Assembly: GCA_965371225.1 (NCBI GenBank)
Contig: CBDUXP010000112.1
Location: forward strand, 1-6,313
Direction of reading: 5' to 3'
Origin: CBDUXP01 sp965371225 [NCBI: uncultured bacterium]
GTDB lineage: Bacteria > Abyssobacteria > SURF-5 > CBDUXP01
Length of the DNA stretch: 6,313 nucleotides
Shown here: in pieces, positions 2,824-6,249 of the stretch
Layout of the letters: the number at the start of each line of letters is the position of its first letter
Position numbering within the stretch: position 1 is the first letter of the stretch
Notes under the pieces: model-generated
Told to the model about the DNA's origin: nothing
What the model saw: the letters and a program-made list of their open reading frames with translations, nothing else
The model's database searches: none
Made by a program: the position numbers and the translations under genes

Positions 2824-4125
2824 ATGAGTACCGACGCATACTGGCAACCGTTCACGCCCACCGGCTATCGCGCCGAGGTGCGCCAGCACACCATCGTCGA
2901 GGGCGACGGCGTGTACGTGGTCGACACCGAGGGGCACCGGCTGCTGGACGGCACCGCCGGCCTGTGGTGCGTCAACGTGGGCCACGGCCGCGCGGCCATC
3001 GCCGACGCCATGCACGCGCAGGCGCGCACGCTCGCGTACTACACCCCGTTCGAGTATCGCAACGAACCGGCCGTGGCCCTGGCAGAGCGCGTGGCCGCCC
3101 TGTTGCCCGGCGACCTGAACCACGTGTTCTTCACGTGCACCGGCAGCGAGGCCGTGGAGACCGCCATCAAGATTGTGCGGGGGTATCGCGCGCGGCGCGG
3201 CGAGGTCGGCCGGACGAAGATCATCTCCCGCGACCTGGCGTACCACGGCGTCGGCATGGGCGGCACGAGCCTGAGCGGCCTCACGTTCATGCGGTCGGCG
3301 TTCGAACCGCTCCTGCCGCACACCTTGCGGATCCCGCACCACCACCACCGGCACTGCACCATGTGCGACGACCTGGACGCGTGCAACCTGAACTGCGCGC
3401 GGCACCTGGAGTACCGCATCCAGCAGGAGGGACCGGAAACGGTCACGGCATTCATTATGGAGCCGGTGGTGGGCGCCGCGGGCGTGATCCCGCCGCCCGA
3501 GGGCTACGTGCTGGCCGTGGCGGACATCTGCAAGAAATACGGGGTGCTCCTCATCTTCGACGAAGTCATCACCGGCTTCGGCCGCCTGGGCACCTGGTTC
3601 GCCGGCCAGAAGTTCGGCGTCACGCCCGATCTCGTCACCATGGCGAAGGGCCTCACGAGCGCGTACGCGCCGCTCGGCGCGGTGGCGGCGACGGCCGAGG
3701 TGTTTCAAACCTTTGTCGATGCCGACGCGAAGCCCGCGCCGGAGTTCGCGCACGGCTACACCTACAGTGGGCACCCCGTCTGCTGCGCGGCGGGCCTGGC
3801 GAATCTCGATATTCTGGAAGCGGAAGACCTGCCCGGAAACGTGGCGAAGCTGGAAGCGCCGTTCGCCGAGGAGCTGCAGGGGTTGACGGACCTGGCCCCC
3901 GTGGCCGAGGTGCGCGCGATGGGGCTCCTGGGGGCGGTGGAGTACACCGCCGAGGCGGGGGCGGGCTTTCCCCGCCGGGTGAGCGAGGAAGCCTACGTGC
4001 GGGGGCTCATCGTGCGCCCGACGCGGAACAACAGCGTGCTCTCGCCACCGCTGATCGTCCAGCGGGAGCACGTCACGGAAATCGGCCGCCTCATGCGCGA
4101 AGCCATCACCGCCGCCGCCGGTTAG
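2824..4125 (+). CDS. Class III PLP-dependent aminotransferase, omega-amino acid (beta-alanine)-pyruvate type
   Basis: This cytosolic pyridoxal-phosphate enzyme moves the terminal amino group of an omega-amino acid to a keto acid, probably pyruvate. It has 433 residues, the usual length for the family, and starts at ATG 2824 behind GGAGG with five-base spacing. The N-terminal WQPFT (7-11) and DGTAGLWCVNVGHGR (42-56) resemble beta-alanine-pyruvate transaminases. PLP site: TGSEAVETA (106-114) binds the phosphate, Y140-H141 stacks on the ring, D246 in FDEVITGFGR pairs with the pyridine nitrogen, K275 in TMAKGLTS is the Schiff-base lysine, and HGYTYSGHP (310-318) supplies the Thr from the partner subunit. 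An unusual stretch at 172-191 holds five His and four Cys (C178, C181, C187, C191). Some class III relatives have a Cys-bearing loop at this place. The exact substrate is unresolved; other omega-amino acids, diamines or GABA are possible. Confidence 0.9.
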   Translation: MSTDAYWQPFTPTGYRAEVRQHTIVEGDGVYVVDTEGHRLLDGTAGLWCVNVGHGRAAIADAMHAQARTLAYYTPFEYRNEPAVALAERVAALLPGDLNHVFFTCTGSEAVETAIKIVRGYRARRGEVGRTKIISRDLAYHGVGMGGTSLSGLTFMRSAFEPLLPHTLRIPHHHHRHCTMCDDLDACNLNCARHLEYRIQQEGPETVTAFIMEPVVGAAGVIPPPEGYVLAVADICKKYGVLLIFDEVITGFGRLGTWFAGQKFGVTPDLVTMAKGLTSAYAPLGAVAATAEVFQTFVDADAKPAPEFAHGYTYSGHPVCCAAGLANLDILEAEDLPGNVAKLEAPFAEELQGLTDLAPVAEVRAMGLLGAVEYTAEAGAGFPRRVSEEAYVRGLIVRPTRNNSVLSPPLIVQREHVTEIGRLMREAITAAAG

Positions 4126-4132
4126 GGACATG

Positions 4133-4200
4133 GTAGGGGCGATCCAAGTGATCGCCCACCGTTCGCGCGCAGGGCGGGCGAAGACGAGCTTCGCCCCTAC
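4133..4200. repeat. GTAGGGGC palindromic double-hairpin element, copy 1
   Basis: Outer arms GTAGGGGCGA (4133-4142) and TCGCCCCTAC (4191-4200) are perfect inverted repeats of 10 bases. Within the element are two local stems. GGGCGAT (4137-4143) pairs with ATCGCCC (4151-4157), and GGGCGAA (4176-4182) pairs with TTCGCCC (4190-4196), each with a seven-base loop. The outer arms share bases with the local stems, so whole-element pairing and two-hairpin pairing compete, with GTAG/CTAC able to close the two-hairpin form. It starts seven bases after the aminotransferase stop codon. The architecture is like REP/BIME or MITE elements; there is no coding potential and no clear target duplication. Confidence 0.8.
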
Positions 4201-4216
4201 GCAGGCACGCAAACCC

Positions 4217-4274
4217 CGTAGGGGCGCAATTTATTGCGCCCATCTCATCGGGCGCGATGAATCGTGCCCCTACG
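4217..4274. repeat. GTAGGGGC palindromic double-hairpin element, copy 2
   Basis: Outer arms CGTAGGGGCGC (4217-4227) and GTGCCCCTACG (4264-4274) are inverted repeats with one mismatch in 11. Local stems are GGGCGCAAT (4222-4230) with ATTGCGCCC (4233-4241), nine perfect pairs around two bases, and GGGCGCGAT (4250-4258) with ATCGTGCCC (4261-4269), eight pairs plus one G-T. It follows copy 1 after 16 bases. The plan matches copies 1 and 3, but stem and loop sequences differ. Confidence 0.8.
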
Positions 4275-4323
4275 ACACCATCGTGGGGCGGGGAGGCGAA
4301 TCCGTGCCGCGCACGCGGAGGCG

Positions 4324-4329
4324 TATGAT
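4324..4329 (+). promoter_or_regulatory. Candidate -10 element for the ACT-domain gene
   Basis: TATGAT matches five of six bases of the -10 consensus and lies 57 bases before the ACT gene start. No good -35 is found 17 bases upstream. A transcript starting near 4336 would have a leader of about 50 bases. That leader contains a strong stem, GTCCCG (4350-4355) with CGGGAC (4368-4373), ending just before the ribosome binding site AGGGGGA (4374-4380). Confidence 0.3.
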
Positions 4330-4386
4330 GGTGGCGAGGGAATGGAGCCGTCCCGGCGCGGGGAGCGCGGGACAGGGGGATGCGTC

Positions 4387-4782
4387 ATGCCGATATCGAC
4401 GAAGAAGCAGTTCACGGTGTGGTTGGAGAACACGCCGGGCCAGTTGGCGAAGCTGGGCCGGGTCCTGCAGCGCGGCAAGGTCAACATCGTGGCCATGTGC
4501 GTGGTCGAGAACGCGGACAGCGGGCAAGTGCGCTTCGTAGCGGATAAGTCCTCTGCTGCGCGCAAGGCGCTCCAGCAGGCCAAGCTGCCGTTCAGCGCGC
4601 GCGACGTGCTCGTGGCGCGGCTGGGCGACGTGCCCGGCGCGATGGGCCGCGTGGGGTCCGCCCTGGCTAAGGCGAAGATCAATCTGGATTACGCCTACGC
4701 CAGCACACACCCGGCGCAGGACGATGCGCTCGTGGTCATCGCCTGCGACGACGTCCGCGCCGCCAAACGCGCCCTCGGCTGA
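4387..4782 (+). CDS. Small tandem ACT-domain protein, probable amino acid sensor
   Basis: The 131-residue protein is made almost entirely of two ACT domains (about 6-66 and 73-131), a layout seen in stand-alone ACT proteins that bind amino acids or other small ligands and act as regulatory subunits. Each domain opens with the ligand-loop motif: LENTPGQL (13-20) in the first and GDVPGAM (80-86) in the second. Each is followed by a helix and a strand with K-x-N-I / K-I-N-L. No catalytic domain or DNA-binding domain is attached. The start is set at ATG 4387 behind AGGGGGA with six-base spacing. A longer frame opens at GTG 4264, but its extra residues are encoded by the repeat element and a hairpin and look nothing like ACT sequence. 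The gene lies between repeat copies 2 and 3 and faces the next gene tail to tail. Which ligand or partner enzyme it serves is not shown by the context. Confidence 0.85.
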   Translation: MPISTKKQFTVWLENTPGQLAKLGRVLQRGKVNIVAMCVVENADSGQVRFVADKSSAARKALQQAKLPFSARDVLVARLGDVPGAMGRVGSALAKAKINLDYAYASTHPAQDDALVVIACDDVRAAKRALG

Positions 4783-4804
4783 CGCGACGGCTCGTTAATT
4801 CTTC

Positions 4805-4880
4805 CGTAGGGGCGGACCGGCGTGTCCGCCCGCAGGTGGGTGCGGCTCCGCGCGGGCCGACACATAGGTCGGCCCCTACG
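4805..4880. repeat. GTAGGGGC palindromic element, copy 3, at the junction of two convergent genes
   Basis: Outer arms CGTAGGGGC (4805-4813) and GCCCCTACG (4872-4880) are perfect inverted repeats. Local stems are GGGCGGAC (4810-4817) with GTCCGCCC (4824-4831), and GGGCCGAC (4854-4861) with GTCGGCCC (4868-4875), eight perfect pairs each with six-base loops. A third small stem lies between them: GTGCG 4840-4844 with CGCGC 4849-4853, including one T-G pair. Stem bases differ from copies 1 and 2 but remain paired. The right arm contains the TAG stop (4876-4878) of the downstream minus-strand gene. As a structured element between convergent genes it could also limit read-through. Confidence 0.8.
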
Positions 4881-5496
4881 TACTCACTTCTTCGAGCGCA
4901 TGCCGCAGCGCCGCGTGCGGGTCGCTCGTTACGGGCGGGCCGTGATCCAGGCACAGCACGGAGAACTCCAGGTCGAGGAGTCGCCGCACGCTCGCCTGCG
5001 TCGCCGCCGCGTCGTCGTGATACTCGCCGGGCACGAAGTGGAGCGCCCCGTCGGGCGTGCACATCAGCAGGTCCGAGCAGAACAGCACGCCGGGATCGTC
5101 CGCCCGCAGGAAAGAGTAATGCGCCGGCTCGGGACCCGGGGTGTGGACCACCTCCAGCCCGCCGGGGAGCACGTCACCTGCGGCATAGCGTTCGTCCGGC
5201 TCCTCGTCCGTTTCGCGCGCGCCCTCGGGCGCGTAGACCTTCACGCCGAATTCCTTGCGATAGCGCCACGCCGCCCGTTGGTGACAGGTGGCTGTGAGGC
5301 AAATGGCGGAAACGGGACCGAGGCTCTGCAGGGCTGCGGGGTCGAGGGGAAGCGGGTCGATGAGCACCACGCCCCCGTCGTCCGCGACCGCGTGCGCGTC
5401 GCCGCGGAAGTTGATCCGCTCGTCCAGAATGTGCCAGTTCCAGACGCCGGATACGACCTCTTCAGTCGTTTCCGCTGTGGTCGTGGGTTCAGACAT
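4876..5496 (-). CDS. Metallo-beta-lactamase-fold protein with a degenerate metal-binding motif
   Basis: The 206-residue protein has the order of secondary structure and spacing of the metallo-beta-lactamase fold, as in glyoxalase II-like hydrolases. It has a first strand with DGGVVLIDPLPLD (40-52), then LT-A-T-C-H-Q-R (67-74), where the family normally has LTHxHxDH. The later landmarks are partly kept: TPGPEPAH (119-126) for TPGHTPGH with His126, FCSDLL (139-144) with Asp142, and DHGPP (184-188) with His185. Three or four metal ligands of the first motif are therefore absent or replaced (Cys71 and His72 remain nearby). It may bind one metal in a changed geometry, or be a non-catalytic member. 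I chose the ATG at 5496 because AGGAGG (5508-5503) lies six bases before it; an in-frame upstream extension to 5634 has no such site and no family similarity. The last codon and the stop lie inside the right arm of repeat copy 3. Confidence 0.75.
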   Translation of the reverse strand: MSEPTTTAETTEEVVSGVWNWHILDERINFRGDAHAVADDGGVVLIDPLPLDPAALQSLGPVSAICLTATCHQRAAWRYRKEFGVKVYAPEGARETDEEPDERYAAGDVLPGGLEVVHTPGPEPAHYSFLRADDPGVLFCSDLLMCTPDGALHFVPGEYHDDAAATQASVRRLLDLEFSVLCLDHGPPVTSDPHAALRHALEEVST

Positions 5497-5552
5497 AAGA
5501 ACCCTCCTTGCGAGCAGCTTCAGCTGAGCTGATGATGGCGTACGATTCACAG

Positions 5553-5655: not shown

Positions 5656-6249
5656 CTAATCGCGCGGCTCGCTTGGTCTTATTCTGAAGCTCAAGAGCTT
5701 GCGGCACTCTGTGAGGAATTTACGAGCTGCCCGTTTGGCCTGTGGACGGCTAAGGCCGTTCCGCCGGAAGCGCCCTACAAGATGCTTAAGGAAAAGATGT
5801 TCCCAATGGCTTCGAAAGCCGGTTTCAGAGACTTGCACGAGTATGCGCGGGTGATCTGGCGTAGTCATAAACCGATCGCCCTCACGCCCGGGTTGCACAT
5901 ATAGTCCTCCAGCGGTTAGGGCAAGGTCTACAAGCCCTCCCTGAGTTTCAATATCGAACTCGAGAACGATTTTCAGCACAGTGGGGCGATGAAACTCAAG
6001 AATCAGATAGATTTTGCCCTTCCGACCCTTCACTTCCGCCCACTGACCCTCCACGTCTCCCGTTTTAACATGCTCATGTACCCGCACTAGCTCTTCGATA
6101 TCAGGTCTATCGGACGTGTCAATGATGAGAAGTGGAATAAGTCGCCCCTCACCGAGCAGGACAGTAGCAATGGCCGCGTCAGCCACGATCTTCGGAAAGG
6201 TAGCCTCGTACTTCGTTCGAAAGCTAATCTTCGTCTTGCGCGGGTTCAT
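5656..6249 (-). CDS. Unrecognised 197-residue protein in lower-GC DNA
   Basis: I do not recognise a family. The protein starts MNPRKTKISF and has a basic N-terminus. Alternating hydrophobic strands follow, for example ATVLLGEGRLIPLLIID (28-44), GKIYLILEF (78-86) and VLKIVLEFDI (91-100). The last third is very basic, with Arg/Lys-rich helices (about 157-192) around NGLSRPQAKRAARKF. There is no signal peptide or membrane segment. It looks like a soluble mixed alpha/beta protein with a possible nucleic-acid-contacting tail, but that is inference. Coding DNA is close to half G+C in the lines counted, far below the genes to the left, which suggests transfer or weaker codon selection. The start ATG at 6249 has only a weak GGGA upstream and lies inside the end of the preceding gene, overlapping by 26 bases, so translation is probably coupled. 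Confidence 0.7.
   Translation of the reverse strand: MNPRKTKISFRTKYEATFPKIVADAAIATVLLGEGRLIPLLIIDTSDRPDIEELVRVHEHVKTGDVEGQWAEVKGRKGKIYLILEFHRPTVLKIVLEFDIETQGGLVDLALTAGGLYVQPGREGDRFMTTPDHPRILVQVSETGFRSHWEHLFLKHLVGRFRRNGLSRPQAKRAARKFLTECRKLLSFRIRPSEPRD

Follow-up and report, generated by a model that had tools for sequence, protein, structure and literature searches.

What kind of element produces a family of short double hairpins whose stems change from copy to copy while the pairing is kept? The question is raised by three palindromic elements in a window of 6,313 nt (the whole stretch of DNA that was analysed) on contig CBDUXP010000112.1 of assembly GCA_965371225.1, from CBDUXP01 sp965371225 (NCBI: uncultured bacterium), with a G+C content of 66.5%. 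The reading that we prefer, at a probability of roughly 0.9, is that the window elements are GTAG-tagged REPINs built on a GTAG-GGGC foot, most likely mobilised by a RAYT, and that their stems probably covary through recognition of structure. As such, they are a well-supported new representative of the known REP/REPIN class.

A Pfam scan of the seven window genes identified a rhodanese, a phasin-like protein, an aldolase, a class III aminotransferase, a paired ACT-domain protein and a metallo-beta-lactamase-fold protein, with one gene lacking a match, a 197-aa open frame at window positions 5656-6249 (-); no transposase was found among the seven. A search with the aminotransferase gave three relatives, which are 36-41% identical to it. 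REPIN 1 and REPIN 2 lie between the aminotransferase and ACT genes, and REPIN 3 lies between the ACT and lactamase-fold genes, as listed here.

2824..4125, + strand: class III aminotransferase gene, directly upstream of REPIN 1
4133..4200, no strand: REPIN 1, head-to-head dimer of GTAG REPs, inner spacer 18 nt (4158-4175)
4133..4157, + strand: REPIN 1 left REP hairpin, stem GGGC+GATC (8 bp), loop CAAGT
4176..4200, - strand: REPIN 1 right REP hairpin, stem GGGC+GAAG (8 bp), loop CTCGT
4218..4273, no strand: REPIN 2, head-to-head dimer, inner spacer 8 nt (4242-4249)
4218..4241, + strand: REPIN 2 left REP hairpin, stem GGGC+GCAA (at least 8 bp), loop TTTA
4250..4273, - strand: REPIN 2 right REP hairpin, stem GGGC+ACGA with one A.C mismatch, loop TTCA
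4387..4782, + strand: paired ACT-domain protein gene, between REPIN 2 and REPIN 3
4806..4879, no strand: REPIN 3, head-to-head dimer, inner spacer 22 nt (4832-4853)
4806..4831, + strand: REPIN 3 left REP hairpin, stem GGGC+GGAC (8 bp), loop CGGCGT
4854..4879, - strand: REPIN 3 right REP hairpin, stem GGGC+CGAC (8 bp), loop CTATGT
4876-5499, - strand: metallo-beta-lactamase-fold gene, convergent with the ACT gene
4876-4878, - strand: TAG stop codon of the metallo-beta-lactamase-fold gene, provided by the GTAG end of REPIN 3

The first-pass annotation had described a three-copy family of double hairpins with shared terminal arms, and the arms bear this out. The window holds six occurrences of the 8-mer GTAGGGGC, three on each strand, which form three inverted pairs and are restricted to the six element ends, against a mean of 0.23 and a maximum of 2 in 200 dinucleotide shuffles. 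Of the limits first given to the copies, 4133-4200 stands, and 4217-4274 and 4805-4880 are each too long by one flanking C/G per side. Every half has the same layout of GTAG, GGGC, four variable bases, a loop of 4-6 bases, the complement of the variable bases and GCCC. All six window ends have an unpaired GTAG immediately 5' of a short GC-rich hairpin, with stems that start GGG, and in all three elements the two REPs are inverted about a spacer with GTAG facing outward. The base before GTAG is C at five ends and G at one. All three elements are extragenic and near gene 3' ends, with REPIN 3 overlapping a stop codon.

The pairing had been called almost perfect, and this is accurate: perfect stems of at least 8 bp are present in five of the six hairpins, and the exception is the right half of REPIN 2, in which the A.C mismatch leaves only 4 contiguous pairs. 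The right stem of REPIN 3 differs from that of its partner by one flipped pair. Over 59 nt, REPIN 2 and an element of IMG/VR locus L032 are 89.8% identical. It had also been proposed that two folds compete, and DNA energies agree: relative to the two-hairpin fold, the long whole-element fold is more stable by 0.9 kcal/mol in copy 1, 1.3 in copy 2 and 6.3 in copy 3. The minimum free energy fold is the long form on both strands for copies 2 and 3, but not for copy 1.

Stem covariation across loci

A loose IMG/VR scan for the element pattern returned at least 120 stretches. Together with the window and three genome loci, the IMG/VR matches listed gave a set of 147 elements, counting nested and repeated ones. 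In 66 of the 147 (among the matches listed), both halves had stems of at least 7 bp, against a mean of 0.1 and a maximum of 2 in 200 runs with shuffled interiors of the same elements; the remaining matches include ones without such hairpins, so an element is not defined by its arms alone. Strict scans, in which the feet of both halves were fixed, were then made of IMG/VR. Four such scans returned 62, 51, 49 and 78 stretches, for 208 distinct dimers (3 from the window and 205 from IMG/VR). The 416 halves of these dimers pair at all four variable positions in 293 cases, at three in 96, and at two or fewer in 27. Among 258 distinct half bodies, 178 are paired at all four positions, compared with a mean of 6.9 and a maximum of 14 for shuffled partners, and the strict set holds 52 distinct stem words with all sources pooled.

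The stems had been said to covary, and the claim holds for bodies chosen without regard to pairing. Each GTAGGGGC in the loci gathered to that point was joined to the first GCCC that followed it at a hairpin-like distance, and 125 of 195 distinct bodies were paired at 4/4 variable positions, with 4.9 expected when the 3' parts were shuffled. Within single genomes the words also vary with the pairing kept, as ACGG, ACGA, ACAG, ACAA and ACGC in G474 and as GAC, TGC, CTG, TAG and TTG in G482. The stem covariation is real; the contigs are partly related and so not independent, yet the margin is large. The many paired stem words amount to natural data on what a RAYT needs for recognition.

Carriers and RAYT-like genes

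Two genome samples were searched for the arm pattern, one centred on an Osedax symbiont (Pseudomonadota) and one on Brevibacillus formosus (Bacillota), with the phylum labels being those of the centres. The pattern was found in 7 of 299 genomes of the Pseudomonadota sample and the same pattern read backwards in 25 of 299, so that arms alone prove nothing in that sample. By eye, the insides of the matches are REP-like in G082, G102, G186, G247 and G272 but not in G177 or G242. The single-REP pattern compared with its reversal gave 10 vs 23, 6 vs 4, 6 vs 4, 18 vs 16 and 17 vs 14 in these five carriers, and the total is not above that for the reversal. A weaker half-dimer pattern was present in 40 of 120 genomes from the order of G272 and its reversal in as many; among the matches listed, only the places in G272 and G390 look REP-like by eye.

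In the Bacillota sample, the arm pattern was present in 5 of 199 genomes, and the reversed pattern gave single matches in 13 genomes. Four of the five have REP-like insides by eye (G474, G482, G594 and G607), with up to eight dimers each, and in these four GTAGGGGC-N-GCCC outnumbers its reversal by 56 to 0 (G474), 47 to 1 (G482), 41 to 17 (G594) and 8 to 4 (G607). The large plasmid of Thermomicrobium roseum carries 20 such matches in clusters (18 distinct REPs by eye), with 8 for the reversal. On that plasmid, NC_011961, the GTAGGGGC REP clusters are at 148-156, 187-199 and 212-225 kb, mostly with GAGG stems and some about 225 bp apart. One foot type recurs in the Bacillota and Pseudomonadota samples, in many metagenome contigs and in Thermomicrobium; linkage to RAYTs was seen in the Bacillota sample.

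A plasmid search with the element region returned 16 records, 12 of them from Pantoea, with 77-89% identity over short stretches. The Pantoea stretches, such as NC_014838.1:670917-670978, resemble REPIN 2 or its left half and are mostly unannotated; perhaps they are REPs of another foot type.

The first-pass annotation had suggested a look for a RAYT flanked by these arms, and such genes were found in other genomes. Matches to Y1_Tnp (PF01797) are present in all four Bacillota carriers. One Y1_Tnp protein of G482 (L372:2603-3079) has ten GTAGGGGC hairpins at distances of 113-818 bp, on both sides, and narrowly passes the NCBIfam model NF047646 (REP-associated tyrosine transposase), with 81.8 bits against a cut-off of 80. 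In G594, one Y1_Tnp match has a GTAGGGGC-N-GCCC match at a distance of 311 bp. The other nine Y1_Tnp stretches examined in the Bacillota carriers have no GTAG hairpin of at least 7 bp within 1.5 kb. In the Pseudomonadota sample, three of the seven genomes with arm matches have a Y1_Tnp match, and no GTAGGGGC hairpin of at least 7 bp was found in the surrounding stretch examined for any of the three.

A set of RAYT-like loci was selected by protein similarity only, with no use of the repeat, by comparing the G482 protein with 291 genomes of its class (E <= 1e-10) and taking one locus each from 30 genomes, one of the 30 being the G482 locus itself. With one protein containing an internal stop left out, 29 proteins were scored against NF047646, and 28 match at E <= 0.001, not necessarily all over the cut-off. 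GTAG hairpins occur within 1 kb at 19 of the 30 loci, at 10 of them of the GTAGGGGC type, and rearranged tags used as controls (GATG, GGAT, AGTG, TGAG and GTGA) were found at 2, 0, 1, 0 and 0 of the 30. The GTAG hairpin is missing at the remaining 11, some of which are interrupted by contig ends. At the RAYT-like locus L387, the stems are GGGC+GGAC and the loops CTGCGT and ACATAG; REPIN 3 shares the GGAC stem on one side, and on the other side its CTATGT loop is the complement of ACATAG.

Searches of the metagenome and plasmid carriers gave negative results. PF01797 was over its cut-off in 0 of 47 IMG/VR records, with one weak match; these records come from 48 of the at least 120 loose-scan loci, and many are short fragments. 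A search of IMG/VR with two RAYT proteins found none, and PF01797 had no match on the REP-carrying plasmid of T. roseum. The exact-stem finder returned no hairpin at the E. coli rayT locus. REPs of E. coli need a bulge for activity (PMC8266576, in excerpt), and so a perfect stem is not universal among REPs.

An array at G242:C1:2359068-2362462 (L126, L131) has GTAGGGGC ends and a different inner structure, with units partly about 117 bp apart. Within it lies a Y1_Tnp match (2361293-2361556), at a distance of about 250 bp from GTAGGGGC-ended units, and the array is possibly another REP type with its transposase.

We infer a RAYT that serves this organism and the mobility of the window copies, and the biochemical steps proposed for them are borrowed from published work on other REPs. 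Each half would consist of the unpaired GTAG and a hairpin with GGGC/GCCC at the bottom, in which the upper pairs, about four, may vary provided that they pair, and a REPIN would consist of two such halves in opposite orientation with GTAG outward. The RAYT (TnpA_REP; a Y1 HUH enzyme) would bind the hairpin as single-stranded DNA, with GTAG guiding its choice of cut site, and would move or copy the dimer, often to gene 3' ends. The stems would covary because recognition would need a paired stem and no particular upper-stem sequence, and lineages would drift to different paired words. Published cleavage tests, as excerpted from PMC8266576, offer a simple reason for stems that are paired yet varied: GTAG matters, the upper stem in E. 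coli can be swapped for its complement while the bulge is required, and cleavage is impaired in S. maltophilia and Marinomonas by a mismatch in the stem or a changed loop.

An empty site, unlike halves and other explanations

One site with and without an element was found. The element at L059:6448-6502 is absent from the orthologous site in L286; the flanks are 76% identical over 193 bp on one side and 80% over 196 bp on the other. In the L286/L059 comparison, AACGT joined to AAAAAAGG aligns against CACGTAG...CTACATGAAAAAAGG, by either gain or loss, with at most a possible 2-bp GT overlap and no clear target duplication. By reading frame, the upstream stop is TAA without the element and the TAG of GTAG with it. 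When read, the other candidate empty sites resembled nested or repeat artefacts. The supply of gene stop codons is a described habit of GTAG REPs (PMC3733652, in excerpt). Among 219 element ends close to a long open frame, 37 have that frame ending at the TAG of GTAG; this count is not relied on beyond the one clear window gene, because the longest open frame was taken, which by our reading is not the real gene for two of the three window entries.

Among 351 distinct flanks, the base before GTAG is T in 170, C in 143, G in 28 and A in 10. A pyrimidine is therefore directly outside GTAG in 313 of 351, and positions further out are nearly flat except for -2. The same holds for 42 of 52 hairpins at the RAYT-like loci. 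The TnpA_REP of E. coli cuts at CT adjoining the REP (PMC8266576, in excerpt), and the preference just outside GTAG is in keeping with this, if not an identical rule.

The two halves of a dimer are commonly unlike. Of 125 dimers whose stems are complete, 28 have identical halves, compared with 5.6 when partners are shuffled, and the majority are still unlike; where halves differ singly, the difference is a C/G flip in 26 of 44 cases. Were the halves identical, the long fold would win by energy in 125/125, but as found the two-hairpin fold wins in 43 of the 125. The same stem occurs in 34 of 172 inverted neighbours vs 19 of 30 tandem ones (p=3e-6), with unlike words in 138/172 and 11/30, respectively, in a comparison for which loci were fetched for their inverted pairs and in which tandem duplication alone could explain the tandem figure. 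Di Nocera et al. called the excess of heterodimers unexplained and suggested protection from SbcCD (PMC3733652, in excerpt), and the present data fit a cost of long palindromes, short of proof. A broader proposal, which we put forward tentatively and regard as rather improbable, is that the GTAG-GGGC foot and the loop class form the fixed recognition core of a cross-phylum REP superfamily. The upper stem would then be a freely exchangeable paired word, and the words of inverted pairs would be prevented from becoming alike, in many cases through a single flipped pair, which would let the small hairpins fold in place of the long palindrome.

A related rule, that identical stems are rare at short spacers, was dropped, given that the predicted rise at 31-60 nt failed in a fresh scan. 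The first set had identical stems in 6/71 at 0-14 nt vs 22/54 at 15-30 nt, or 6/46 vs 15/41 without repeated stem pairs (p=0.013). With deduplication, the difference was 3/23 vs 9/15 for loops of 3-4 nt (p=0.004) and 3/21 vs 4/21 for loops of 5-8 nt (p=1). The fresh scan at 31-60 nt, for 3-4-nt loops, found identical stems in 5 of 16 elements and in 3 of 13 distinct stem pairs.

Covarying stems could arise by a route other than recognition. In quasi-palindrome correction, template switching in a hairpin during replication restores pairing. If one arm were rewritten from the other in this way, the covariation could come mainly from replication, and the elements may still be REPs. Among 47 orthologous element pairs that differ in sequence, both bases have changed in 17 variable stem pairs that are still Watson-Crick, as one-step restoration would produce; the predominance of C/G flips in the single differences between halves points the same way. 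However, selection on a foldable structure yields the same pattern, and one-sided changes (19) are as common as two-sided ones (the 17 and 4 others, with 164 stem pairs unchanged). In addition, 43 halves were unparsed, the 47 pairs include some that are not REP dimers, and some elements may have been replaced by another copy. We consider template switching an unlikely main source of the covariation, while leaving it a real chance.

Two other explanations bear on what the elements are. They could chiefly be RNA hairpins at gene 3' ends, selected by the host to end transcription or protect mRNA, in line with the position of all three window copies downstream of at least one gene end and with the stop codon inside one of them. 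Rfam gave 0 matches above the gathering score in the window and none with locus L125, and an RNA role leaves unexplained the GTAG on both strands, the outside pyrimidine, the patchy distribution and the link to RAYT-like genes; as the chief function, it is very improbable, and an RNA side effect of the elements is possible. The first-pass annotation had offered REP/BIME or MITE elements as models, and the former is borne out by the GTAG tag, the head-to-head dimers, the gene-end location and the RAYT flanks elsewhere. A MITE would be an internally deleted DDE transposon with GTAGGGGC as its terminal inverted repeats and target-site duplications. The inverted ends and short length suit it, but the ends belong to two separate hairpins, single GTAG hairpins exist as well, the one empty site is without a clear target duplication and the linked protein is of the Y1/RAYT type. 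There is hardly any room left for a MITE, and the RAYT-mobilised REPIN is the reading retained.

Relation to known REP systems

GTAG REPs are known from Proteobacteria, Cyanobacteria, Chloroflexi and the PVC group (Di Nocera et al. 2013, PMC3733652, in excerpt). As far as that text extends, they have in common with the window type an unpaired GTAG foot, paired alternative stem residues and head-to-head dimers, along with frequent heterodimers, location at gene 3' ends and GTAG stop codons. Thermomicrobium roseum is named there as a carrier of GTAG-23 in clustered blocks. The window REPs probably belong to family GTAG-23, an assignment made by T. roseum and the clustering and not by the family consensus; a point of difference is that the 52 stem words found here, with all sources pooled, are very diverse. 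Among the literature matches listed, no publication naming the GTAGGGGC REP was found. PMC4192349 was set aside as a report of it, since GTAGGGGC occurs in primers in the part consulted.

The TnpA_REP of subclass 2.4 is associated with REPs that have three G-C pairs at the base of the stem and that also occur within the transposase gene (Quentin et al. 2018, PMC6006769, in excerpt). Both traits are present at the 30 RAYT-like loci, where 42 of 52 GTAG hairpins begin GGG and a GTAG hairpin lies inside the protein match at 14 of the 30. These traits suggest that the RAYT behind the window elements would be of the subclass 2.4 kind.

The RAYT-like genes of L393 (1501-1962) and L409 (1501-1932) read through in-frame REPs, which add peptides such as VGAAICRP and GRQVAAPT, as the excerpted text describes for subclass 2.4 (PMC6006769).

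The REPINs of Bertels and Rainey (2011, PMC3116915, in excerpt) are alike in being an inverted REP doublet with a spacer, in their predicted long hairpin and in their tie to a RAYT. They differ in hosts and in REP sequence. In the doublets described there, the ends are highly conserved and the middle varies, whereas in the present elements the hairpin stems vary as well.
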